From Candidatus Scalindua japonica (lineage in GTDB: Bacteria; Planctomycetota; Brocadiia; Brocadiales; Scalinduaceae), in the NCBI RefSeq assembly GCF_002443295.1, contig NZ_BAOS01000016.1, positions 1-52,073 of the forward strand: DNA of 52,073 nucleotides. Reading direction: 5' to 3'. Below are positions 2,000 through 43,089 of this stretch, one piece after another. The position numbers and the translations under genes were made by a program. Numbering within the stretch: the stretch's first letter is position 1; every line of letters starts with the position of its first letter. A model generated the notes under the pieces. It was not told the DNA's origin, did no database searches, and saw nothing but the letters and a program-made list of their open reading frames with translations.

Positions 2000-3221
2000 A
2001 TGTTTGAACAAACTTTCAAAAATATTGACGATACGCTTTGGAAAGACGCTGGTTGTAGTAGCGAGCTGGATTATGTAGAACAAACTTCATGGGTTTTATT
2101 TCTAAAATATCTGGACGATCTGGAAAAGGATAAACAAACCGCTGCCGAGCTTTCCGGTAAAACTTACACACCTATTATTGACGAGAAATTCAAATGGGAT
2201 GTATGGGCTGCACCCAAAGACGGTAATGGCAAACTCGACCACCACAAAGCATTAAGCGGCGATGATTTGGGTGAGTTCGTTGACCTGCAATTGTTTCCCT
2301 ACCTGAAAAAAGTTCAAAGAACATGCGGAAAGCGCAGACACCATCGAATATAAAGTTGGCGAGATTTTCAGCGAGCTTAAAAATAGAATCCAAAGCGGTT
2401 ATAATTTGAGGGAAGTGATTAACCTTGTTGATGAACTGCGTTTCCGCACCCATAAAGAGAAACACGAAATGTCCCATCTGTATGAATCCAAAATCAAAAA
2501 CATGGGCAATGCCGGGCGTAACGGCGGAGAATATTACACGCCGAGGCCGCTGATCAAAACCATCGTAAAAGTAGTTGCCCCGGAAATAGGCAATACCATT
2601 TATGACGGTGCGGTTGGCTCCGCAGGCTTTCTGTGTGAAGCCTTTGAATATTTGAAAGCCAGCAAGAGCTTAACAACAAAACAAGCCGATACGCTACAAC
2701 GAAAAACATTTTACGGCAAAGAAAAGAAATCACTGGCTTACATTATTGGCATTATGAATATGATTTTGCACGGCATCGAGGCTCCCAATATTGTACATAC
2801 CAACACCTTGGCCGAAAACATTTCTGATATTCAGGAAAAAGACCGTTTTAACATTATACTGGCTAATCCGCCTTTTGGCGGGAAGGAACGCAAGGAAGTG
2901 CAACAAAATTTTCCCATTAAAACAGGGGAAACGGCCTTCCTGTTCTTACAGCATTTTATCAAAAAGCTCAAAGCCGGAGGCAGAGCAGGTGTGGTTATAA
3001 AAAACACCTTCCTTTCAAACACCGACAATGCTTCCGTCTCACTGCGCAAACAATTGATGGAAAGCTGTGACCTGCACACGATACTGGATTTACCCGGTGG
3101 TACATTTACCGGCGCAGGCGTTAAAACCGTTGTGCTGTTTTTTGAAAAAGGTGCACCTACTAAAAAAGTATGGGCATTTATTACCCTCCTTGGTTTTGCT
3201 CTATGGGATATGATTTGTTGA
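2000..3221 (+). pseudogene. hsdM: Broken type I restriction-modification methylase subunit (HsdM)
   Basis: Two reading frames together match HsdM. The first (2000-2353) is the HsdM N-terminal helical domain (TFKNIDDTLWKDAG onward). Near 2310, after PYLKK, a single-base frameshift moves the correct sequence (FKEHAESADTIEYKVGEIF) into another frame, which continues to 3221 with the N6-adenine methylase domain. AdoMet motif I reads DGAVGSAGF rather than the usual DPACGSGGF, and catalytic motif IV NPPFGG is present. The family sequence stops after FFEKGAPTKKVW (about 3170). The remaining ~15 codons and the DNA up to 3237 are unrelated, so the C-terminal ~100 residues are missing. No hsdS or hsdR is present. 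Two independent lesions make this a dead gene; the single-base shift alone could be an assembly error. Mobile element copy 1 begins 16 bases after the ORF end. Confidence 0.85.
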
Positions 3222-3347
3222 ACATATAATACGATTGTTGGACGAAGCCGCTATCGCGGAGAACAAAATCGGAAATTTATTATATAATGTAACCTCACAC
3301 CCTCAACGGGAGGGTGAATCTATTAACAAATAGGAGGTTACAGGTCT

Positions 3348-4255
3348 ATGAAAACATTATCTCAATCCGATTTCAACAAAAATTACCAAACGCATCTAAA
3401 GCACCTACGCTTGAAAGGACTCCGGCCAAAAACAATCGAGGCTTATTCACGTGCCATCCGACGGATCGGTGATTATTTTGACAATCAGATACACGATCTA
3501 TCTGAACAGCAACTACTTGACTATTTTTCCAATCTCCTCAATACCCATTCATGGAGCGCAGTCAAATTAGACCTCTACGGACTAAAGTTTTTCTACACTC
3601 ATGTGCTTCATAAGCGTTGGGAGCAAGTAAATCTTATTAAACCACCCAAAACGCAACGTTTGCCCGATATTGTCACCATTAATGAAGCCCACCAACTTTT
3701 CCAGGTGACGAGAAAACTCAGTTACCGGGCCTTCTACTTTGTTCTTTACAGTCTTGGTCTCCGCCTGGGTGAAGGACTACGTCTTGAGGTTAGCGATGTC
3801 GATTCTCAGCGAATGCGGGTGCATATCCGCGATAGCAAAGGCAATAAAGACCGTTTCGTACCCCTGCCAAAGGTAACCCTGAATCTCTTACGCCGTTTTT
3901 GGCTTGTTCATCGCAATCCTGTCTTTCTATTTCCAGGCCGTCATGGTGGCTTGAAATCAGCCCACCTGGCAAAAACACCTCTGAATAGAAATGGCGTTCA
4001 GGCCACTCTGCGTAAGGTAGCCCGGGAGTGTGGAATTAAAAAAAAATTACACCACACAGTCTGCGACACAGCTACGCAACCCATCTGATTGAGGCGGGTG
4101 TTGATCTGCTTGAAGTACAAAAAATCCTCGGCCACCACAGTATTTTAACCACTGCCAAATATACCCACCTGACCTCTCATACAAATCGTAATGCCTTGCA
4201 ATTAATTAATGATTTGATGAATGGTTTTTCCATAGAATGGGGGAATGTTATATGA
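3348..4255 (+). CDS. Tyrosine recombinase/integrase, probably made by -1 frameshift at A9 (copy 1)
   Basis: Frame 0 runs to 4088 and encodes the SAM-like core-binding domain (residues 10-90) and the first half of the catalytic domain, including RLGEGLRL (first catalytic Arg) and SKGNKDR (beta-hairpin Lys). At nine consecutive A (about 4038-4046) the conserved sequence moves to the -1 frame: [18 protein letters not shown], then LGHHS, then the nucleophile in KYTHL, ending with TGA at 4253-4255. Rereading one A gives a 302-residue protein with all catalytic residues; frame 0 alone lacks HxxR, His and Tyr. The A9 is identical in all three copies, favouring programmed frameshifting or transcriptional slippage over random damage. 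It resembles the XerC/IntI clade but lacks the extra IntI-specific insertion. Its stop overlaps the transposase start (ATGA). AGGAGGT lies upstream of the ATG. Confidence 0.8.
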
Positions 4256-5370
4256 TATCTCTCTCCTCTATAATTGAGACCTTCATTGCTGACTTTATCA
4301 CTCTTTATCATGGTTCGATCCTGCCAAGTCAATTCAAAGCCCTGGCAGCCATGAAGGATTGTCGCACTACGCAAAGCCGCGTCATGCTGGTCCAATGTAA
4401 TGACTGTGAAAAACAGGTTTTTGTACCGCACTCCTGCGGTAACCGCAATTGTCCTCATTGTCAGAGTCATGAGTGTCAGCAGTGGTTGGAGCGTCAACTG
4501 AAAAAAGAAGTGCCTGCTGACTATTTTATGCTCACCTTTACTATACCCAAAGAGCTTCGATCATTAGCATGGCAGCATCAACGCTTGCTTTACTCGATAA
4601 TGATACAGTGTTGTTGGGAAACCGTAAAAACCTTTGTCCAAAATGACAGCGTATTACAAGGAAACGCTGGAGCCATCACTGTTTTGCACACCCACTCTCG
4701 CTCTCTCGATTACCACCCGCATATCCATCTGGTAATGCCAGCCGGGGCCATCAATCAGAAGAAAAAGCTTTGGAGCTTCAAAAAAAGCGAAGGAAAGACG
4801 CGGTACCTTTTCAATCACAAAGCGCTGGCTAAAGTGTTTCGAGCAAAAATGCTCGATGCCGTGAACAAAGCGGCTCTTACGCTTCCAGTTAATTATCCCA
4901 AAACATGGGTCGTCGATTGCAAATTTGTCGGCAACGGTGAAAAGGCACTGGTCTATCTTGGTCGTTATCTCTACAAAGGGGTCATTCAAGAGAAAGATAT
5001 TATTACGTGCAAAGATGGTCAGGTGACCTTTCGTTACCAGGATAGTAAGAGCAAAAAAATGCTCACAAGAACACTTCCCGGCCCGCAGTTTCTCAGGTTG
5101 ATTCTCCAGCATGTTCTACCCAAAGGTTTCAGGCGAACACGGAACTTTGGTTTCCTCCACCCTAATAGCAAACGCTTGATTGCATTGCTTCAGTACCTTA
5201 CCGGTATCAACCCGAATAAGTCGTCAGCCTGGTTCAGAGAGCGTCCAAAGCTTACGTGCAAATGCTGTGGAGGAATAATGAAGATCATAAAAACGATGAT
5301 ACCTCCATCACACAAATCCAGGTCTTTCCCCTACAAGTTAACAAAAGAGGAGGCTGTTCTGGTTATGTAA
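4252..5370 (+). CDS. IS91-family HUH (Y2) transposase, copy 1
   Basis: About 372 residues. The N-terminal zinc-binding domain carries [13 protein letters not shown]. The HUH motif is HPHIHLV, where the two His coordinate metal for ssDNA nicking. The tyrosine motif [10 protein letters not shown] carries the nucleophile(s). A C-terminal CKCCGG may bind a second zinc. Family knowledge: IS91 transposases move by rolling-circle replication via single-stranded intermediates. I chose the ATG at 4252, which overlaps the recombinase stop as ATGA with GGGGGA about 9 bases upstream; an in-frame ATG at 4237 lacks a good site. Coupling to an upstream tyrosine recombinase is known for a subset of IS91-like elements. 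The gene is intact and the same protein is encoded by the other two copies. Confidence 0.93.
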
Positions 5371-5605
5371 TCGAATCCGCTATGCATCTAAGATTTGCAA
5401 AAACGGCATTATCGGGTCGAGATGGCCCCCGTTTGCCCAAATTTGAGGTAAAATGGCCGAAAAACCATGTTCTGTAGCTCCTAAAGCATGACGACAGCAA
5501 TTGAAAAATCCACTTCTTTGGCTTCATAGCTTCTGCGGTAAAAAAGAGAAGCAATCTTCATAAGATATTTTCTTATACAATGTTTAGCACCCAAACAACG
5601 GGCTT

Positions 5606-5666
5606 GTCCAACAAACGGTTCAGATTGTGGTTCGTCCCTCACACAATCTAACCTTATTCGTTATAA
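5606..5666 (+). repeat. attC: attC (59-base element) at the 3' end of element copy 1
   Basis: Layout on the plus strand: 1L GTCCAAC, 5-base spacer, 2L GTTCAGATTGTG, short loop, 2R CACAATCTAAC, 7-base spacer ATT..CG, then the crossover G|TTATAA. 2L and 2R pair fully apart from one extra C in 2L, the hallmark extrahelical base that sets attC orientation. The organisation parallels the aadA-type attC. 1L is the exact reverse complement of GTTGGAC at the element's left end, as expected for a cassette that circularises. In this copy the six bases after the G (TTATAA) fit TTRRRY poorly because they belong to the neighbouring DNA. Confidence 0.8.
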
Positions 5667-5851: not shown

Positions 5852-5879
5852 TTGACAAGTTATTTTATTATTATAATAT
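5852..5879 (+). promoter_or_regulatory. Sigma-70-type promoter for the ATPase gene
   Basis: Perfect -35 TTGACA (5852-5857), 16-base spacer, -10 TAATAT (5874-5879). The ATG of the ATPase gene follows at 5912, with GAGGAA as its ribosome-binding site. An own promoter fits a gene that has moved as a unit. Confidence 0.6.
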
Positions 5880-5911: not shown

Positions 5912-7615
5912 ATGGAACAAATTCAAGAGCTTTACTCAAGAAGACCATTCATGTCAAGGAATGCGGATGAATACGATATTAGCCAAATCCTAGACCTCTT
6001 CGTAAGCCCATTTTCTGGGTTTACCACTCCATTCGATTACGAAAATAGCATTATCAAAGGACGGATGGGTTCAGGCAAGACAATGTATTTGAAAGCAAAC
6101 TATGCGTATTACCTATACAGCATTGTTGAAAGCCTTGCTAATCAAGAAGAGGTGGTTTTGCCTGTAATGATAAAACTGAACGATTTTCAGCATCTTAGAG
6201 ACCCATCTGAAATTTATAAAGCTATAGTGATAAAAATTATTGAAGAGTTGGCTTCGACATATATTCGTTTGCAAGATGCAAAACAAATGGCCAAAATCCA
6301 TATGGGGATTAAATCTTTACCACCTGATTTATTACAAGGTCAAAAAATAGCTAACTGTCTAAATAAATTAGCAAAGCTAGGCTCCGTTGAGTATGCAGAG
6401 CGCATTACAACTGAACTTGGATTGAAAGGGGGTATAAAACCAAAATTTATTGAGATTTCAGCTGAATTCAAAGAACACAAACTTAATGAAATCAAATGCA
6501 AACCAAGTCCCGGAATCAAAGATATCGAAGAAAGTTATCAAAGTCTTCTTAGTGATCAAGGCGGTAAAATTATTCTTTTAATAGATGAAGCAGGTTCTCT
6601 TGACAAAAATTTCTTTCGTGGCAAAGATAATGATTCCCTTTTTTTAATACTAATGAATCAGTTACGAACAGCACCATTCATTCGAACAAAGATTGCAATT
6701 TATCCAAATTCATATCAGGACATACTCACTGAAACTCGCTATGGCGATGTTATCCTTCTTGAAAACAACATCATGGACAGCGATGGCTACAAGGAGTTTC
6801 GAAAGAAAACATGTCACATAATACAAAACTATATAAATTCGGAAGAAACAGACACTCCTATTAAAGCAGAGGATTTATTTGAAATAAATGTTAAAGAAAA
6901 TTATGGTGATTGTATCGAACAGTTGATAAATGCATCAAACGGCAATATGCGCAGATTAATACAGCTATTGGAGGCATCAATGGAGGAAGCATACGAAGAT
7001 CATAAGGGAGCAAACAAGATAAATCTAAAGCATGTCGCTGAAACCCTAAAACACCATGCAAGAGATACTGAGGGTCTTTACACAGAACCAGAGAGGGAAC
7101 TTCTTCAAAATCTTGTAAAAGCGTGCAAAAGCCGTAGCACATATAAATTTGAATTCCCAAATATGTCACTTTCGCTAAATAAATACACATCTAGATCACA
7201 AGAATATAATCTTATTAATGTAGTACATGTTGGTACTGGTAGGAAGAGTAATATCTATGCTTTCGATTATAGCTTTTGTATTGCACACGATATCCCAACA
7301 CACTATGAGCCGAGTTCCGAAAAAATAAATCGTGATCGATCACTTGCTAACGGCAGATGGGCACCAAGGGTTGCAAGAATAACTGATAAAGTTATTGAGC
7401 AAGCAAGTATCACTGCTAAAGTAGAAGGAGTTATCGATTTTGTATCAAAATCCAGTGGGTTTATACAAGGGGACGACGAACAAAAGTATTTTTTTACGGA
7501 AGACTATATAATCGATGATGATAAGAATAAGTCTCTATTTCAAGGGAGAAGAGTTCGGTTTATGCCGTTTATGTTTGGAGACAGTAAAATTTCTCAAGCT
7601 ATAGAAGTGCTTTAG
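5912..7615 (+). CDS. ORC/STAND-like P-loop ATPase with C-terminal cold-shock-like domain
   Basis: 567 residues. Walker A is GRMGSGKT (about residues 50-57). Walker B is IILLIDEAG (about 219-227). After an alpha-helical region there is a predicted winged-helix stretch. The architecture and the start (RRPFMSRNADEYD) fit ORC/CDC6-like AAA+ ATPases often found in defence islands. Residues about 500-567 resemble an OB-fold cold-shock domain: KVEGVIDFVSKSSGFIQGDD corresponds to the CSD G-x-I/V-x-F..GFI pattern, QKYFF to RNP2, and FQGRRVRFMPF to the closing GxxVxF strand. I infer a nucleotide-driven sensor that binds RNA or ssDNA at its C-terminus. The gene lies between two inverted copies of the mobile element, with its own promoter. 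A coiled-coil membrane protein gene follows; a functional pairing is speculative. Confidence 0.7.
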   Translation: MEQIQELYSRRPFMSRNADEYDISQILDLFVSPFSGFTTPFDYENSIIKGRMGSGKTMYLKANYAYYLYSIVESLANQEEVVLPVMIKLNDFQHLRDPSEIYKAIVIKIIEELASTYIRLQDAKQMAKIHMGIKSLPPDLLQGQKIANCLNKLAKLGSVEYAERITTELGLKGGIKPKFIEISAEFKEHKLNEIKCKPSPGIKDIEESYQSLLSDQGGKIILLIDEAGSLDKNFFRGKDNDSLFLILMNQLRTAPFIRTKIAIYPNSYQDILTETRYGDVILLENNIMDSDGYKEFRKKTCHIIQNYINSEETDTPIKAEDLFEINVKENYGDCIEQLINASNGNMRRLIQLLEASMEEAYEDHKGANKINLKHVAETLKHHARDTEGLYTEPERELLQNLVKACKSRSTYKFEFPNMSLSLNKYTSRSQEYNLINVVHVGTGRKSNIYAFDYSFCIAHDIPTHYEPSSEKINRDRSLANGRWAPRVARITDKVIEQASITAKVEGVIDFVSKSSGFIQGDDEQKYFFTEDYIIDDDKNKSLFQGRRVRFMPFMFGDSKISQAIEVL

Positions 7616-7928
7616 AATTATAGAACAAGCCGCTGCATCTTACCGCTATTCCACTGCACTCCATAGTGGGATTATTGAAGATAAAATTAACCGGTGGTAT
7701 AGCAAAATAATACTATCAGGAAAAAACGCTTGAATTACTAGGCGTGAATAGTCTATAAAGCCTATTGTATGCTTACAAGAAAAAGTTATTAACGTCTGAT
7801 AAGTGTGCGTTATTCTGTATTTTCTTTAGATATACAGGTTTATTTGGATATTATTGCAATGGCTTTGTTAATCAGAAACTGGTTATCTACTTGTTAGGCG
7901 TCAAAGACCAAGAGATTATGACTCCATA
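7616..7928. other. Intergenic region with a possible attC-like right half
   Basis: 313 bases without a gene. A GTTAGGC heptamer at 7893-7899, 29 bases before the next start codon, fits the attC 1R consensus GTTRRRY and the usual cassette layout, where a gene begins just after 1R. The upstream stretch 7790-7892 can pair only weakly (TGATAA with TTATCA-like segments), so a complete attC is not demonstrated. A small hairpin CCACT..AGTGG occurs near 7656-7676. Confidence 0.35.
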
Positions 7929-8492
7929 ATGGCGGAAGAGAAAAAAGAAAGATTCCAACTGAAAGTTGGTAACATAATGCTTGAGACCACAAAAGTTCTT
8001 CCGGTGGTATTGAGCCTAGTGGTTATTGTTGTCGCTATCCTCGGGTTTCAGCTAATACGGTCAGGCAAGCTAACAAATATCGAATTTCAACCTGCAACAA
8101 TTATTGCGCCTACTGATACCAACGTGAGCAAACGTTTACAAAGCCTAGAAGATAGAGTAAATGAACTCTCGGACATAATCAATACCTCTTCTCAGGAGAT
8201 GCTAGCATCAATAGGTCTCGACAAAGTACAGAAGAGTGTAAAATCTGTATCTTCTGAACTCGATGCCCTCAAGGTTATAATAGTAGAGAACCCAGAGAAA
8301 GCCTTAGCAATTCCCCTCCTTAGAAAAGAGATGGACGAATTGGAGCACAAACATGCTGTGCTAGCCGTATCAACAAAAGATCAAATTGACAGGATTTATG
8401 ACTTTTCTAAATGGTTTTTGGGTCTAATGATAACCTTAGCCATTGGTTTGATTACCATGGGTTTCGTTCGTAGGCCTAAAGGAGACAACTAA
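7929..8492 (+). CDS. Two-TM coiled-coil membrane protein, unknown function
   Basis: 187 residues. TM helix 1 is at residues about 22-43 (VLPVVLSLVVIVVAILGFQLI). A hydrophilic, mostly helical segment with coiled-coil character (residues 58-150, VSKRLQSLEDRVNELSDII onward) follows, then TM helix 2 at about 160-182 (WFLGLMITLAIGLITMGFV) and a short basic tail. No catalytic motif is visible. The topology suggests a membrane-anchored helical hairpin, a form seen among membrane-perturbing or sensor partners in defence pairs, but nothing here proves that. The stop codon ends at the last base before element copy 2, and the AACTAAC at that junction is the outer-box-like target of the insertion. The start ATG is 29 bases after a GTTAGGC motif. 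Confidence 0.6.
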   Translation: MAEEKKERFQLKVGNIMLETTKVLPVVLSLVVIVVAILGFQLIRSGKLTNIEFQPATIIAPTDTNVSKRLQSLEDRVNELSDIINTSSQEMLASIGLDKVQKSVKSVSSELDALKVIIVENPEKALAIPLLRKEMDELEHKHAVLAVSTKDQIDRIYDFSKWFLGLMITLAIGLITMGFVRRPKGDN

Positions 8493-8547
8493 CGAATAAG
8501 GTTAGATTGTGTGAGGGACGAACCACAATCTGAACCGTTTGTTGGAC
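8487..8547 (-). repeat. attC: attC (59-base element) of element copy 2
   Basis: The same 55-base attC body as in copies 1 and 3, read on the minus strand: 1L GTCCAAC (8547-8541), 2L with the extra C, 2R, and crossover G|TT at 8493/8492. The downstream bases are TTAGTT, contributed by the neighbouring gene's end, one mismatch from TTRRRY. On the plus strand the same DNA reads AACTAAC..GTTGGAC and could be mistaken for an attC of the upstream gene, but the extra base places the orientation on the minus strand. Confidence 0.78.
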
Positions 8548-8782
8548 AAGCCCGTTGTTTGGGTGCTAAACATTGTATAAGAAAATATCTTATGAAGATT
8601 ACTTCTCTTTTTTACCGCATAAGCTATGAAGCCAAAGAAGTGGATTTTTCAATTGCTGTCGTCATGCTTTAGGAGCTACAAAAAAAGCCTTGGTAACCAT
8701 TTTACCTCAAATTTGGGCAAACGGGGGCCATCTCGACCCGATAATGCCGTTTTTGCAAATCTTAGATGCATAGCGGATTCGA

Positions 8783-9901
8783 TTACATAACCAGAACAGC
8801 CTCCTCTTTTGTTAACTTGTAGGGGAAAGACCTGGATTTGTGTGATGGAGGTATCATCGTTTTTATGATCTTCATTATTCCTCCACAGCATTTGCACGTA
8901 AGCTTTGGACGCTCTCTGAACCAGGCTGACGACTTATTCGGGTTGATACCGGTAAGGTACTGAAGCAATGCAATCAAGCGTTTGCTATTAGGGTGGAGGA
9001 AACCAAAGTTCCGTGTTCGCCTGAAACCTTTGGGTAGAACATGCTGGAGAATCAACCTGAGAAACTGCGGGCCGGGAAGTGTTCTTGTGAGCATTTTTTT
9101 GCTCTTACTATCCTGGTAACGAAAGGTCACCTGACCATCTTTGCACGTAATAATATCTTTCTCTTGAATGACCCCTTTGTAGAGATAACGACCAAGATAG
9201 ACCAGTGCCTTTTCACCGTTGCCGACAAATTTGCAATCGACGACCCATGTTTTGGGATAATTAACTGGAAGCGTAAGAGCCGCTTTGTTCACGGCATCGA
9301 GCATTTTTGCTCGAAACACTTTAGCCAGCGCTTTGTGATTGAAAAGGTACCGCGTCTTTCCTTCGCTTTTTTTGAAGCTCCAAAGCTTTTTCTTCTGATT
9401 GATGGCCCCGGCTGGCATTACCAGATGGATATGCGGGTGGTAATCGAGAGAGCGAGAGTGGGTGTGCAAAACAGTGATGGCTCCAGCGTTTCCTTGTAAT
9501 ACGCTGTCATTTTGGACAAAGGTTTTTACGGTTTCCCAACAACACTGTATCATTATCGAGTAAAGCAAGCGTTGATGCTGCCATGCTAATGATCGAAGCT
9601 CTTTGGGTATAGTAAAGGTGAGCATAAAATAGTCAGCAGGCACTTCTTTTTTCAGTTGACGCTCCAACCACTGCTGACACTCATGACTCTGACAATGAGG
9701 ACAATTGCGGTTACCGCAGGAGTGCGGTACAAAAACCTGTTTTTCACAGTCATTACATTGGACCAGCATGACGCGGCTTTGCGTAGTGCGACAATCCTTC
9801 ATGGCTGCCAGGGCTTTGAATTGACTTGGCAGGATCGAACCATGATAAAGAGTGATAAAGTCAGCAATGAAGGTCTCAATTATAGAGGAGAGAGATATCA
9901 T
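8783..9901 (-). CDS. IS91-family HUH (Y2) transposase, copy 2
   Basis: Encodes the same protein as copies 1 and 3: N-terminal CxxC..CxxxxCxxC zinc site, HPHIHLV HUH motif, [10 protein letters not shown] tyrosine motif and C-terminal CKCCGG. The start at 9901 overlaps the recombinase stop (ATGA). The 17-base variable patch lies beyond its stop codon, so the coding region is unaffected. Confidence 0.92.
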
Positions 9902-10805
9902 ATAACATTCCCCCATTCTATGGAAAAACCATTCATCAAATCATTAATTAATTGCAAGGCATTACGATTTGTATGAGAGGTCAGGTGGGTATATTTGGCA
10001 GTGGTTAAAATACTGTGGTGGCCGAGGATTTTTTGTACTTCAAGCAGATCAACACCCGCCTCAATCAGATGGGTTGCGTAGCTGTGTCGCAGACTGTGTG
10101 GTGTAATTTTTTTTTAATTCCACACTCCCGGGCTACCTTACGCAGAGTGGCCTGAACGCCATTTCTATTCAGAGGTGTTTTTGCCAGGTGGGCTGATTTC
10201 AAGCCACCATGACGGCCTGGAAATAGAAAGACAGGATTGCGATGAACAAGCCAAAAACGGCGTAAGAGATTCAGGGTTACCTTTGGCAGGGGTACGAAAC
10301 GGTCTTTATTGCCTTTGCTATCGCGGATATGCACCCGCATTCGCTGAGAATCGACATCGCTAACCTCAAGACGTAGTCCTTCACCCAGGCGGAGACCAAG
10401 ACTGTAAAGAACAAAGTAGAAGGCCCGGTAACTGAGTTTTCTCGTCACCTGGAAAAGTTGGTGGGCTTCATTAATGGTGACAATATCGGGCAAACGTTGC
10501 GTTTTGGGTGGTTTAATAAGATTTACTTGCTCCCAACGCTTATGAAGCACATGAGTGTAGAAAAACTTTAGTCCGTAGAGGTCTAATTTGACTGCGCTCC
10601 ATGAATGGGTATTGAGGAGATTGGAAAAATAGTCAAGTAGTTGCTGTTCAGATAGATCGTGTATCTGATTGTCAAAATAATCACCGATCCGTCGGATGGC
10701 ACGTGAATAAGCCTCGATTGTTTTTGGCCGGAGTCCTTTCAAGCGTAGGTGCTTTAGATGCGTTTGGTAATTTTTGTTGAAATCGGATTGAGATAATGTT
10801 TTCAT
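9898..10805 (-). CDS. Tyrosine recombinase/integrase, -1 frameshift at A9 (copy 2)
   Basis: Same organisation as in copy 1. The frame-0 product stops at 10065 and lacks HSLRH and the nucleophilic Tyr. The nine-A run (nine T on the plus strand near 10107-10115) is retained unchanged, and a -1 shift yields the 302-residue full recombinase ending at 9898. Survival of the identical homopolymer in an inverted, partly diverged copy supports a functional frameshift or very recent spread; sequence alone cannot separate the two. Confidence 0.78.
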
Positions 10806-11196
10806 AGACCTGTAACCTCCTATTTGTTAATAGATTCACCCTCCCGTTGAGGGTGTGAGGTTACATTATATAATAAATTTCCGATTTTGTTCTCCGCGAT
10901 AGCGGCTTCGTCCAACAATAGCATCAACACAGACTGTCAACTTCGCTGGCAGCCGGTTATGACCTGTCTTTCCAATGCCAAAGGAAACATCTTCTCTATT
11001 GACAATTGACTTTTAGATTGGCAGGCCGCAATGGCGGAAGGCCGAATAACGAGTATGTACACGTGAGACCGAAATTGACAATACAACGAACAAATTGATG
11101 TTTTGGGCTATATGTAGTAAAATGACGGGTAAATGACATGGAGAAGACCGTATGGTATTCCAAAAAGGCAAGAAACTAGCGGGAGAATAGCGAAAA

Positions 11197-11550
11197 ATGG
11201 CAAGATTTGAACAAGGAAATACTTTCAGTACAGGCCGGAAGAAAGGCTCACGGAATAAGCTTACAAATGATGTGAGAGCGGCGTTTCATAAGGCTTACGA
11301 CGAGATGGGCAATAACAAGGTTGGTAAAGATGGCAAGCCTATGACTGGTCACGAAGCTTTCTTGGCGTGGGCACGAGACAACCAGACAGAGTTTTACCGC
11401 CTCTACGCTAAGATGATACCCAAGACGGCTGAATTTCCTGACGACCTGCACGAACATTTTGTCGATACGCTAGTTTTCGAGGAAGAACAGGTCAAGATGA
11501 TCGAAGGCAATGCGAAAGTTGTTGATGTCACCGATACGAAACCAAAATAA
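11197..11550 (+). CDS. Phage-type small protein with GRxKGSRNK N-terminal motif
   Basis: 117 residues. It begins RFEQGNTFSTGRKKGSRNKLT, typical of small phage or prophage proteins (DUF5681-like or terminase-small-subunit-like) that open with 'FxxGxS...GRPKGSxNK'. The helical remainder (HEAFLAWARDNQTEFYRLYAKMIP) fits that group. Function unknown; DNA packaging or regulation is possible. An in-frame ATG 45 bases upstream (11152) would encode MVFQKGKKLAGE, then a TAG codon, then this protein. The extra segment repeats the motif style, so the gene may once have started there. GGGAGA lies about 12 bases before the chosen ATG. No other phage genes are nearby, so this is probably a remnant. Confidence 0.6.
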   Translation: MARFEQGNTFSTGRKKGSRNKLTNDVRAAFHKAYDEMGNNKVGKDGKPMTGHEAFLAWARDNQTEFYRLYAKMIPKTAEFPDDLHEHFVDTLVFEEEQVKMIEGNAKVVDVTDTKPK

Positions 11551-12153
11551 GGCCGGAATGGGGATATAGTCGATTGATCGACTCCTACTTGTCCGGCTAT
11601 ACTGGTTTTTTGCCACTAAATTATGAATATAGTGAGTTGTGGCAAGGGGTTCATGCCATTTTTCTAATCAGGAATGCATACTATTTCCCAATAGAAACAA
11701 ATCCTATTGTATTACTGAATGCGGTATTATATAATTCATCAAAGATTTTCACCTCTCCTGACATAAGCCAGTTGCTAAATCTATCCAATAGAGGTAACCA
11801 AACATAAGCAACAATATTCAACAGTAACAAATTATTTTTACTACATAAAAGCTGGCTTGACCCGCTGATATATCAAGAATATAAAACAAATCTACAGATT
11901 CGTAGCCCAGGTTTTGTTATAAATGCATGACAAAAAAGTTTTCAGTCGGTAATAAATTCCGGGAGATTTTAACTTACAAACACCACTACCAACCAACCCT
12001 GTAAAAAAAATTAAAAATCCTCATTATGATAATATTATATTACCTTTGACATTACACATTATTGGTATAGAATCAAGGTTTAATAATCAAAGAAGTAAGC
12101 AAGGGTTTCTTGCAGTATTTAACAGCATAATAACATTAGCGAAAACTGACGCT
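11551..12153. other. AT-rich intergenic region between accessory island and core
   Basis: No convincing gene. A TTG-initiated 77-codon ORF (11574-11807) has no ribosome-binding site or recognisable motif. The ORF extending upstream of the radical SAM gene from 12046 has no visible homology before its Met at 12154. This spacer separates the accessory genes from the metabolic core. Confidence 0.4.
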
Positions 12154-13635
12154 ATGAATGTATTATTAATATATCCTGAGTTTCCTGATACTTTCTGGAG
12201 TTTCAAACACGCACTTAAGTTCATACGTAAAAAGTCATCATTCCCACCACTTGGACTGCTGACCATTGCGGCAATGCTTCCGAAAGAATGGTCACTACGC
12301 TTAGTAGATGCCAATGCAACAAAACTCACTGATAAAGATCTTAAATGGGCTGATTACGCGTTTTTCAGCAGCATGGTTGTTCAACGCACATCTGCCTATC
12401 AACTTATAAGACGATGTAAAGACGCTGGCATCAAGATTGTTGCCGGAGGTCCTCTTTTTACAAGCGAGTACGAACATTTTAAGGATGTCGATCATTTTGT
12501 ACTTAATGAAGGAGAGATAACGGTACCCCCTTTCCTGGAAGACCTGAAAAATGGTTGTGCCAAACCGATATACAAAACACCCGAATTTGCTGATATTCGA
12601 GAAACTCCGGCCCCTTTATGGAAGCTGGCCGATTTGAAAAACTATGCCTCAATGAGTATACAATATACAAGGGGCTGCCCATATCAATGCGAATTTTGTG
12701 ATGTAACAGCGCTATTCGGACGTCGTACACGGACCAAGAACACAGATCAGATCATTGCCGAACTCGATACTTTCTATAATCAGGGATGGCGCGGGAATGT
12801 ATTCTTCGTTGATGACAATCTTATCGGGAACAGAAGAAGCCTGAAACAAGATTTACTACCCGCATTAATCAAATGGCAAACTGATCACCCGGGAGTAACA
12901 TTTAACACTGAAGTGTCTATCAATCTGGCAAAAGACGAGTCATTAATGCAGATGATGTTCGATGCAGGGTTTAACACCGTATTTGTCGGAATCGAGACAC
13001 CTGACACTGACAGCCTGGACGAATGCGGTAAGAAGCAGAACAAAGATCGTGATTTAGCCGAAGACGTGCGGATTATACAGCGAGCAGGATTACAGGTACA
13101 GGCCGGTTTTATTGTCGGGTTTGACAATGATACACCATCCATATTCCAACGACAGATTGATTTCATCCAGAAAACAGGAATTGTAACTGCAATGGTTGGT
13201 CTGCTTCAAGCTCCAACCGGTACAAAACTGTACGACCGGCTGAAAAAAGAGGGAAGGCTGCTCGGGCTGATGACAGGTGACAATGCAGACGGTTCGACAA
13301 ATATAATCCCGAACAACATGGACGCAGACACATGTAGAGAGGGGTACAAAAAAATACTAAGACATATCTACTCCCCTGATAATTATTATAAACGCATCAT
13401 GACACTCTTCAAAGAGTATAAATCACCCAAAATCAAGAGCAGAATTAAATTTGAACATATTGTAGGATTGGTGAGTTCTATTTACCACCTCGGTATTATG
13501 GGTAAGGAGCGAGTCCAATTCTGGAATCTTCTGTTATGGACGACTGTTCATCGCCGCGAATTATTTCCACTTGCCGTTACTCTTGCAGTATATGGCTATC
13601 ACTTTCGTAAAATCAGTGAGCTACACATCCTTTAA
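12154..13635 (+). CDS. B12-binding domain radical SAM protein (DUF4070-type)
   Basis: About 493 residues from the internal Met at 12154 (MNVLLIYPEFPDTFWSF), where similarity to the family's N-terminal cobalamin-binding Rossmann domain begins; the ORF can be extended to 12046 without support. The radical SAM cluster motif RGCPYQCEFCDV is CxxxCxxC at about residues 170-177. VDDNLIGN and VGIETPD belong to the radical SAM barrel. A C-terminal DUF4070-like region follows. These enzymes use cobalamin plus a 4Fe-4S cluster for difficult methylations or rearrangements, often in lipid pathways such as hopanoid methylation. The substrate here is unknown. A second, different member lies at 19761. In anammox bacteria radical SAM proteins have been proposed for ladderane lipid synthesis, but nothing here tests that. 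Confidence 0.85.
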   Translation: MNVLLIYPEFPDTFWSFKHALKFIRKKSSFPPLGLLTIAAMLPKEWSLRLVDANATKLTDKDLKWADYAFFSSMVVQRTSAYQLIRRCKDAGIKIVAGGPLFTSEYEHFKDVDHFVLNEGEITVPPFLEDLKNGCAKPIYKTPEFADIRETPAPLWKLADLKNYASMSIQYTRGCPYQCEFCDVTALFGRRTRTKNTDQIIAELDTFYNQGWRGNVFFVDDNLIGNRRSLKQDLLPALIKWQTDHPGVTFNTEVSINLAKDESLMQMMFDAGFNTVFVGIETPDTDSLDECGKKQNKDRDLAEDVRIIQRAGLQVQAGFIVGFDNDTPSIFQRQIDFIQKTGIVTAMVGLLQAPTGTKLYDRLKKEGRLLGLMTGDNADGSTNIIPNNMDADTCREGYKKILRHIYSPDNYYKRIMTLFKEYKSPKIKSRIKFEHIVGLVSSIYHLGIMGKERVQFWNLLLWTTVHRRELFPLAVTLAVYGYHFRKISELHIL

Positions 13636-40477: not shown

Positions 40478-40770
40478 TCCACAGAACCGCTTAGGGCATT
40501 ACTTTAGTTTATTATTGGAATGATAAAATCAGGAGATACCATGCTTTTTTGTTTTATCATGAAAGTGCAAACATTAGGTATGGTGTCCCCCAATTTCTGT
40601 TTATCAACCTTAATGATTGACTGAAAATCAAATGCATTTTTGGTCAACTGGATTTAATTGTTGGGCTATTCCGCTTTCGCGGAGAACAAAATCGGAAATT
40701 GATTACATTTCGTAAACTCACACCCTCAACGGGAGGGTGAATCTATTAACAAATAGGAGGTTACAGGTCT

Positions 40771-41678
40771 ATGAAAACATTATCTCAATCCGATTTCAAC
40801 AAAAATTACCAAACGCATCTAAAGCACCTACGCTTGAAAGGACTCCGGCCAAAAACAATCGAGGCTTATTCACGTGCCATCCGACGGATCGGTGATTATT
40901 TTGACAATCAGATACACGATCTATCTGAACAGCAACTACTTGACTATTTTTCCAATCTCCTCAATACCCATTCATGGAGCGCAGTCAAATTAGACCTCTA
41001 CGGACTAAAGTTTTTCTACACTCATGTGCTTCATAAGCGTTGGGAGCAAGTAAATCTTATTAAACCACCCAAAACGCAACGTTTGCCCGATATTGTCACC
41101 ATTAATGAAGCCCACCAACTTTTCCAGGTGACGAGAAAACTCAGTTACCGGGCCTTCTACTTTGTTCTTTACAGTCTTGGTCTCCGCCTGGGTGAAGGAC
41201 TACGTCTTGAGGTTAGCGATGTCGATTCTCAGCGAATGCGGGTGCATATCCGCGATAGCAAAGGCAATAAAGACCGTTTCGTACCCCTGCCAAAGGTAAC
41301 CCTGAATCTCTTACGCCGTTTTTGGCTTGTTCATCGCAATCCTGTCTTTCTATTTCCAGGCCGTCATGGTGGCTTGAAATCAGCCCACCTGGCAAAAACA
41401 CCTCTGAATAGAAATGGCGTTCAGGCCACTCTGCGTAAGGTAGCCCGGGAGTGTGGAATTAAAAAAAAATTACACCACACAGTCTGCGACACAGCTACGC
41501 AACCCATCTGATTGAGGCGGGTGTTGATCTGCTTGAAGTACAAAAAATCCTCGGCCACCACAGTATTTTAACCACTGCCAAATATACCCACCTGACCTCT
41601 CATACAAATCGTAATGCCTTGCAATTAATTAATGATTTGATGAATGGTTTTTCCATAGAATGGGGGAATGTTATATGA
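40771..41678 (+). CDS. Tyrosine recombinase/integrase, -1 frameshift at A9 (copy 3)
   Basis: Identical organisation to copies 1 and 2: frame 0 ends at 41511, and the conserved HSLRH, GHHS and catalytic Tyr continue in the -1 frame after nine A (41461-41469), ending at 41678 in an ATGA overlap with the transposase. The full product would be 302 residues. Confidence 0.78.
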
Positions 41679-42793
41679 TATCTCTCTCCTCTATAATTGA
41701 GACCTTCATTGCTGACTTTATCACTCTTTATCATGGTTCGATCCTGCCAAGTCAATTCAAAGCCCTGGCAGCCATGAAGGATTGTCGCACTACGCAAAGC
41801 CGCGTCATGCTGGTCCAATGTAATGACTGTGAAAAACAGGTTTTTGTACCGCACTCCTGCGGTAACCGCAATTGTCCTCATTGTCAGAGTCATGAGTGTC
41901 AGCAGTGGTTGGAGCGTCAACTGAAAAAAGAAGTGCCTGCTGACTATTTTATGCTCACCTTTACTATACCCAAAGAGCTTCGATCATTAGCATGGCAGCA
42001 TCAACGCTTGCTTTACTCGATAATGATACAGTGTTGTTGGGAAACCGTAAAAACCTTTGTCCAAAATGACAGCGTATTACAAGGAAACGCTGGAGCCATC
42101 ACTGTTTTGCACACCCACTCTCGCTCTCTCGATTACCACCCGCATATCCATCTGGTAATGCCAGCCGGGGCCATCAATCAGAAGAAAAAGCTTTGGAGCT
42201 TCAAAAAAAGCGAAGGAAAGACGCGGTACCTTTTCAATCACAAAGCGCTGGCTAAAGTGTTTCGAGCAAAAATGCTCGATGCCGTGAACAAAGCGGCTCT
42301 TACGCTTCCAGTTAATTATCCCAAAACATGGGTCGTCGATTGCAAATTTGTCGGCAACGGTGAAAAGGCACTGGTCTATCTTGGTCGTTATCTCTACAAA
42401 GGGGTCATTCAAGAGAAAGATATTATTACGTGCAAAGATGGTCAGGTGACCTTTCGTTACCAGGATAGTAAGAGCAAAAAAATGCTCACAAGAACACTTC
42501 CCGGCCCGCAGTTTCTCAGGTTGATTCTCCAGCATGTTCTACCCAAAGGTTTCAGGCGAACACGGAACTTTGGTTTCCTCCACCCTAATAGCAAACGCTT
42601 GATTGCATTGCTTCAGTACCTTACCGGTATCAACCCGAATAAGTCGTCAGCCTGGTTCAGAGAGCGTCCAAAGCTTACGTGCAAATGCTGTGGAGGAATA
42701 ATGAAGATCATAAAAACGATGATACCTCCATCACACAAATCCAGGTCTTTCCCCTACAAGTTAACAAAAGAGGAGGCTGTTCTGGTTATGTAA
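41675..42793 (+). CDS. IS91-family HUH (Y2) transposase, copy 3
   Basis: Same protein as in copies 1 and 2: N-terminal zinc site, [17 protein letters not shown] and CKCCGG are all intact. The start overlaps the recombinase stop with GGGGGA upstream. Confidence 0.92.
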
Positions 42794-43028
42794 TCGAATC
42801 CGCTATGCATCTAAGATTTGCAAAAACGGCATTATCGGGTCGAGATGGCCCCCGTTTGCCCAAATTTGAGGTAAAATGGCCGAAAAACCATGTTCTGTAG
42901 CTCCTAAAGCATGACGACAGCAATTGAAAAATCCACTTCTTTGGCTTCATAGCTTCTGCGGTAAAAAAGAGAAGCAATCTTCATAAGATATTTTCTTATA
43001 CAATGTTTAGCACCCAAACAACGGGCTT

Positions 43029-43089
43029 GTCCAACAAACGGTTCAGATTGTGGTTCGTCCCTCACACAATCTAACCTTATTCGTTAGGC
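43029..43089 (+). repeat. attC: attC (59-base element) of element copy 3, complete consensus
   Basis: 1L GTCCAAC (43029-43035), 2L with the extra C, 2R CACAATCTAAC, and 1R GTTAGGC (43083-43089), a full match to GTTRRRY. Of the three copies this junction looks most like a true cassette-to-cassette boundary. Confidence 0.85.

Follow-up and report, generated by a model that had tools for sequence, protein, structure and literature searches.

Does the ORC-like ATPase gene that lies between two inverted mobile elements in Candidatus Scalindua japonica form a defence system with the membrane-protein gene behind it, or does it act alone? We addressed this question in a stretch of 52,073 nucleotides (contig NZ_BAOS01000016.1; hereafter, the window), in which a 567-residue AAA+ protein is encoded at 5912–7615 and a 187-residue coiled-coil protein with two transmembrane (TM) segments at 7929–8492, both on the forward strand. 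The original prediction had proposed that the ATPase senses nucleic acid through a C-terminal cold-shock domain (CSD) and that the membrane protein is the effector.

The ATPase part of this proposal was confirmed. The family PF24389 (ORC-CDC6-like; cut-off 27 bits) matched at 41.3 bits, the match being confined to residues 12–63, and both nucleotide-binding motifs are intact. Walker A reads GRMGSGKT (residues 50–57, positions 6059–6082 of the forward strand, as for all features of this gene), and its residues G50, G53, G55, K56 and T57 are the same in all 11 homologues; Walker B, with its ILLIDE core, occupies residues 220–226 (6569–6589), and here L222, D225 and E226 are invariant across the 11. 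Beyond them lies an AAA+ lid (residues 333–384, 6908–7063), recognized by conservation and by a PF16193 match under that family's cut-off (E = 4 × 10−5), which includes a conserved RR pair at 347–348 and in which D333, E336, G344, R347 and R348 are invariant. The lid leads into a winged-helix-like domain (residues 392–458, 7085–7285), seen in the modelled order helix–strand–helix–strand–strand, and this is joined to the C-terminal domain by a conserved linker, FDYSFC-x6-TH-x11-R-x4-G (7268–7360), in which C456, T463, H464, R476 and G481 do not vary among the 11 aligned homologues. The invariant linker motif could be the site of an unrecognized activity. Upstream of the gene, a sigma-70-like promoter, TTGACA-16-TAATAT (5852–5879, forward strand), was the top scan match at 10/12 positions, in a scan whose number of sites did not exceed that in shuffled sequences.

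An AlphaFold2 model, built from an alignment with eight homologues (mean pLDDT 75), contained the AAA+ core, the lid, the winged helix at 392–458 and a C-terminal β-barrel, with the linker poorly modelled. Searching the PDB with Foldseek matched the ATPase to archaeal Cdc6 (1fnn) and ORC2 (1w5t), at low whole-chain TM-scores of 0.27–0.38, with further matches to TnsC, NLR proteins and BrxC. With Walker A and B intact and the lid and winged helix following in the Cdc6 order, we class the protein as an ORC/Cdc6-type ATPase. No nuclease, TIR, phosphoesterase, membrane or other known effector domain was found in it.

The C-terminal domain (residues 502–567, 7415–7612) had been predicted to be an OB fold resembling a CSD, and the structural check supported this. 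Barrel strands were modelled at residues 504–566 with pLDDT of 76–90, and Foldseek aligned the barrel with CspA (1mjc) at a TM-score of 0.84 and an r.m.s.d. of 1.9 Å. At the sequence level, the C terminus matched 2kcm (phmmer, E = 3 × 10−4) and CspA (E = 0.012–0.016), and its PF00313 match (E = 0.0096) scored 16.2 bits, below the cut-off of 27. The same domain in a relative from a Tissierellales metagenome-assembled genome (L069) reached 37.2 bits against that cut-off and carries the full KGFGFI/VFVH motifs. Because this homologue passes PF00313 with complete RNP motifs, we regard the identity of the domain as settled: it is a real CSD. The window protein itself has degenerate RNP motifs (RNP1 is SGFIQ and RNP2 is KYFF), with the aromatic positions partly retained, and nucleic-acid binding by this copy, as judged from its sequence, is therefore likely rather than certain.

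We then asked where else the gene occurs. The window protein alone, used as a query, gave no match in plasmids, phages or genome contigs. A query alignment of the ATPase and a paralogue from the same genome recovered five Bacteroidota relatives and the Tissierellales relative (31% identity), and an enlarged alignment that included these relatives recovered three viral-contig copies (L071–L073; 50–52% identity). Eight of the relatives are full-length homologues with 48–53% identity, comprising the five from Bacteroidota and three from enterobacterial P2-type prophages. The C-terminal domain is retained in 9/9 relatives (Bacteroidota, Tissierellales and viral contigs), and the Walker motifs, the lid arginines and the linker signature C-x6-TH-x11-R-x4-G are unchanged across eleven family members. 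The gene is absent from 391 other sampled genomes of the phylum, congeners included, and this absence points to horizontal acquisition. Searching the phylum with PF24389 returned mainly distant members linked to PRTase-CE or CARF proteins and did not recover the CSD clade; E. coli genomes gave no homologue DNA, and phage and plasmid collections yielded no homologous proteins.

The prophage copies share a defined position. In all three contigs the ATPase gene lies between gpA, the replication initiator (phrog_91), and the portal gene gpQ (phrog_68), and in two of them (L072 and L073) it is the sole substantial gene in that interval. The contigs were typed as P2-type from portal and terminase DNA that is 76% identical to P2-family phages, and the portal protein shares 97% identity with its counterpart in Enterobacter phage ENT4. 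The gpA–gpQ interval of P2 is an anti-phage hotspot that holds old and tin, and it also houses some non-defence cargo (Rousset et al., PMC9122126); the three ATPase homologues thus occupy the same prophage position as old and tin while belonging to a different protein family. A search of viral contigs can return phage-borne copies only, and the informative point is the exact position, which applies to these homologues and not to the window copy. As the three copies are 75–84% identical to one another they are not fully independent, and they may derive from a single acquisition. In the remaining contig (L071), the region 8922–13098 holds further hotspot cargo: a VPA1262-family/PLD protein, a small PLD-like protein and a 648-residue protein without a family match.

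The paralogue lies in a defence setting of its own. Encoded at C4:414889 (L017, 8806–11325), directly 3′ of the type I restriction operon hsdM/hsdS/hsdR, this 839-residue protein combines a metallophosphoesterase, an ORC-like ATPase and a C-terminal OB-like domain, and its phosphoesterase part matches DS9_1_antiphage (E = 8 × 10−25). Defence by DS-9A requires its phosphatase residues, and DS-8 consists of a metallophosphatase and a NACHT ATPase (PMC13092281). The paralogue resembles DS-8 in design, joining a DS-9-type phosphoesterase to an ORC and OB module, whereas the window protein has no phosphoesterase and its ATPase is of ORC/Cdc6 rather than NACHT type. Together with the hotspot position of the prophage homologues, this paralogue upholds the earlier suggestion that the ATPase is a defence candidate.

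Other comparisons relate the protein to several known systems. Members of PF24389 have in common an ORC/Cdc6-type P-loop N terminus, and distant members in related genomes sit in operons with PRTase-CE and CARF proteins; the window ATPase has neither partner gene but does have a CSD. In three such loci (L053, L054 and L056) the order is a gene of around 300 codons, an ORC-CDC6-like ATPase gene and a gene of around 310 codons; in L053 the 5′ gene encodes PRTase-CE and the 3′ gene a CARF-type protein, and a methylase-like gene is present in L053 and L054. We consider these loci candidate multi-gene conflict systems. Elsewhere (L063, 1764–4130), a 788-residue protein joins a weak nucleoside-deoxyribosyltransferase-like N terminus to an ORC-CDC6-like ATPase and is a possible effector–ATPase fusion.

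A remote match was seen to DS-41 (DS41_1, NF053860, DefensePredictor), an experimentally validated anti-phage system (PMC13092281), over residues 318–450, which cover the lid and winged helix (E = 8 × 10−8). We rejected membership of DS-41, as the score of 31.6 bits is far under the cut-off of 370; the 448-position model stops before the linker and CSD, and because it also matches many other ATPases of the phylum the similarity counts as weak evidence. The BREX proteins BrxC and BrxD are likewise defence ATPases of the ORC/Cdc6 clade, and BrxC is among the fold matches, but the published BrxC/BrxD architecture mentions no CSD (PMC12839542) and neither window protein matched any PADLOC-DB 2.0 HMM family, BREX included. 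A parallel in domain content is CnuB/McrB of type I CoCoNuT systems, which pairs an AAA+-type defence NTPase with an OB fold of cold-shock-like form, for which RNA binding has been proposed (PMC11090510). In that protein, however, the NTPase is a McrB GTPase, the CSD is N-terminal and CnuC is the partner, none of which applies to the window system. Among the five Bacteroidota loci, known defence genes do not consistently adjoin the ATPase gene.

Two inverted mobile elements do flank the segment, as had been proposed, with arms of 2,435 nt that are 99% complementary. The left element (3237–5662, forward strand; 2,426 bp; GTT/GGAC...TTATTCGTT, the slash marking the junction) and its right inverted copy (8491–10916, reverse strand; 2,426 bp) belong to an IS91-family type that carries a tyrosine recombinase related to integron integrases (IntI/XerA-like). 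A third region of the element lies in the window at 40671–43085, and copies from across the genome make up loci L075–L104. About 25 near-identical full-length copies are present in the genome, several of them inside the integron cassette array of contig C22. At more than 20 distinct sites the ends are the same, GTT/GGACGAAGCC on the left and CTTATTCGTT/ on the right, the base flanking the right end being A in 21 of 24 cases; the element inserts at an integron-type GTT core. When its ends are joined, R″ (GTCCAAC) and R′ (GTTGGAC) enclose an attC-like hairpin with a much stronger fold than shuffled sequences (z about −6), and in this respect it behaves like a self-spreading integron cassette. 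We did not favour a composite transposon formed by the two inverted copies, given that the element is scattered singly with the same GTT junctions.

The recombinase gene of the element (3348–4240 in the window) is split at an A-run in essentially all copies, giving 246/253 residues and then 71 residues in another frame; plasmid relatives have one longer recombinase gene. The split may be a programmed frameshift or decay that was fixed before the element spread. The C22 array itself (136297–160000; L018) belongs to a chromosomal integron with an IntI match of 430 bits, within which in-frame stops were reported, and contains GNAT and toxin–antitoxin-like genes, group II intron reverse-transcriptase-like genes and several copies of the element. 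Related elements whose ends are built alike are found on Photobacterium damselae plasmids (L122, L123) and on the E. coli plasmid RCS41_p (NZ_LT985243.1, 11205–13177; L121/L124). On the latter, the element has inserted into a class 1 integron, at the R″ box of the attC that belongs to aadA1; the integron has the order intI1–aac(6′)-Ib3–aadA2–cmlA1–aadA1–element–qacEΔ1–sul1. A narrow literature search found no published description of IS91/integrase elements with attC-like ends. Elements of this kind, ending in attC hairpins, would provide a direct tie between transposition and integrons, a class 1 integron on an E. coli plasmid among them.

The restriction genes that had been noted nearby both lie upstream, on the forward strand, and form part of the neighbourhood only: an Mrr-type (type IV) endonuclease gene at 972–1889 (PF04471/PF14338; PADLOC mREase_IV, E = 1 × 10−84) and a broken, truncated type I methylase gene, hsdM, at 2000–3221, in which PF12161 and PF02384 fall in separate short open reading frames.

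The ATPase and TM genes are separated by 313 bp, and this interval contains a possible degenerate attC (7794–7899, forward strand), called from its R′ box and its repeat family. The R′ box GTTAGGC is perfect at 7893–7899 and the R″ box is poor; the intergenic strand 3′ of the ATPase gene folds no better than shuffled sequences (z = −0.58). A repeat of around 200 nt (7730–7895 in the window), which leads up to the R′ box, occupies five intergenic sites in the genome, the one in the window and four others; L020, L021 and L022 are among the sites, and loci on C3, C4 and C5 share the repeat family. In two of the other places the similarity ends at the same GTT, and three of the five sites diverge at a GTT. 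It is a possible attC-like or other repeat element. Two of its occurrences are near tyrosine recombinase genes.

The TM protein has the expected form, with hydrophobic segments at about residues 24–43 and 162–180 and a helical stretch between them; AlphaFold modelled it alone with low confidence (pLDDT 54), from which we read the helix positions only. What would make it a partner is an ATPase that senses phage and activates the coiled-coil protein to depolarize the membrane. Such pairing of an ATPase with a membrane effector is known from other defence systems, and the two genes adjoin on the same strand within one IS-bounded segment. Yet the TM gene or a homologue was nearby in none of the ten other loci of the ATPase family (the eight full-length homologues, the homologue with 31% identity, and the paralogue). 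When all neighbours were compared with one another, no partner family was common to the window and the full-length relatives, except unrelated tyrosine recombinases. The one relative of the TM protein that we found (29% identity over 180 residues) is encoded by a lone gene near umuDC on Pseudomonas fragi plasmid pAd12, which lacks the ATPase; no relative turned up in viral contigs, in phages or among the 391 further genomes sampled from the phylum. The intergenic gap with its possible attC also argues against a unit. Since the TM gene is absent from the other loci and its relative sits alone on a plasmid, the membrane-effector model is unsupported; we rejected the TM protein as effector and regard the two-gene system as highly improbable. 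With no common neighbourhood and a lone plasmid relative, the two genes are best treated as independent. Of the original interpretation, then, the ATPase and CSD architecture and the defence candidacy stood, while the membrane effector and the pairing of the two genes were not supported.

What the ATPase does by itself can be read in several ways, of which the main rival to a defence role is that it is a replication or transposition ATPase, akin to a helicase loader or TnsC, that aids its mobile element and does not act on phages. Its structural similarity to ORC/Cdc6 and TnsC and the proximity of the prophage copies to gpA would fit such a role, but the P2 site holds variable cargo rather than core phage genes, the Bacteroidota homologues have no common replication or transposition neighbour and the paralogue carries a phosphoesterase of defence type as a fusion, and we consider this reading unlikely. 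The fusion also weighs, along with the phage-hotspot location and the mobile distribution, against a cassette-type gene with a non-defence role such as an ATPase in stress or RNA regulation. Cellular RNA is a common target of CSD proteins and the possible attC would suit a cassette; even so, we give this explanation little credence. Equally doubtful is a defence ATPase dependent on an effector from another gene close by, for example the Mrr-type endonuclease: the Mrr-like gene and broken hsdM are near and the C4 paralogue lies 3′ of hsdR, but no neighbour family recurs between the window and the full-length homologue loci (unrelated tyrosine recombinases aside) and two prophages have the gene by itself.

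We therefore favour, with moderate confidence, a solitary and horizontally mobile anti-phage (or phage-exclusion) gene. In such a protein the ATPase and lid would form a nucleotide-driven core, probably oligomerizing in the manner of an ORC/Cdc6-type AAA+ switch, and the winged helix and CSD would read DNA and RNA or single-stranded DNA. We propose that these two domains bind phage-specific nucleic acid, such as single-stranded DNA or transcripts at phage replication forks, and that ATP binding would then drive assembly of the protein. The assembled ATPase could block phage DNA replication or expression, or trigger growth arrest. We favour direct interference because the protein has no nuclease, TIR, phosphoesterase or membrane domain and because the gene is alone in two prophages. 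More tentatively, the gene may represent an undescribed one-gene defence family. Its ORC/Cdc6-type, origin-binding ATPase would recognize phage replication intermediates with its own winged helix and CSD and would halt them by assembling on nucleic acid as a loader does, needing neither a nuclease nor a membrane effector besides.

Prokaryotic conflict systems repeatedly include ORC/Cdc6-type ATPases, usually within multi-gene operons. A compact single-gene form that brings its own RNA- or single-stranded-DNA-binding domain and is carried on P2-type prophages is easily cloned and tested, and such a gene could reveal how a switch of this kind detects a phage and halts it with no separate effector.
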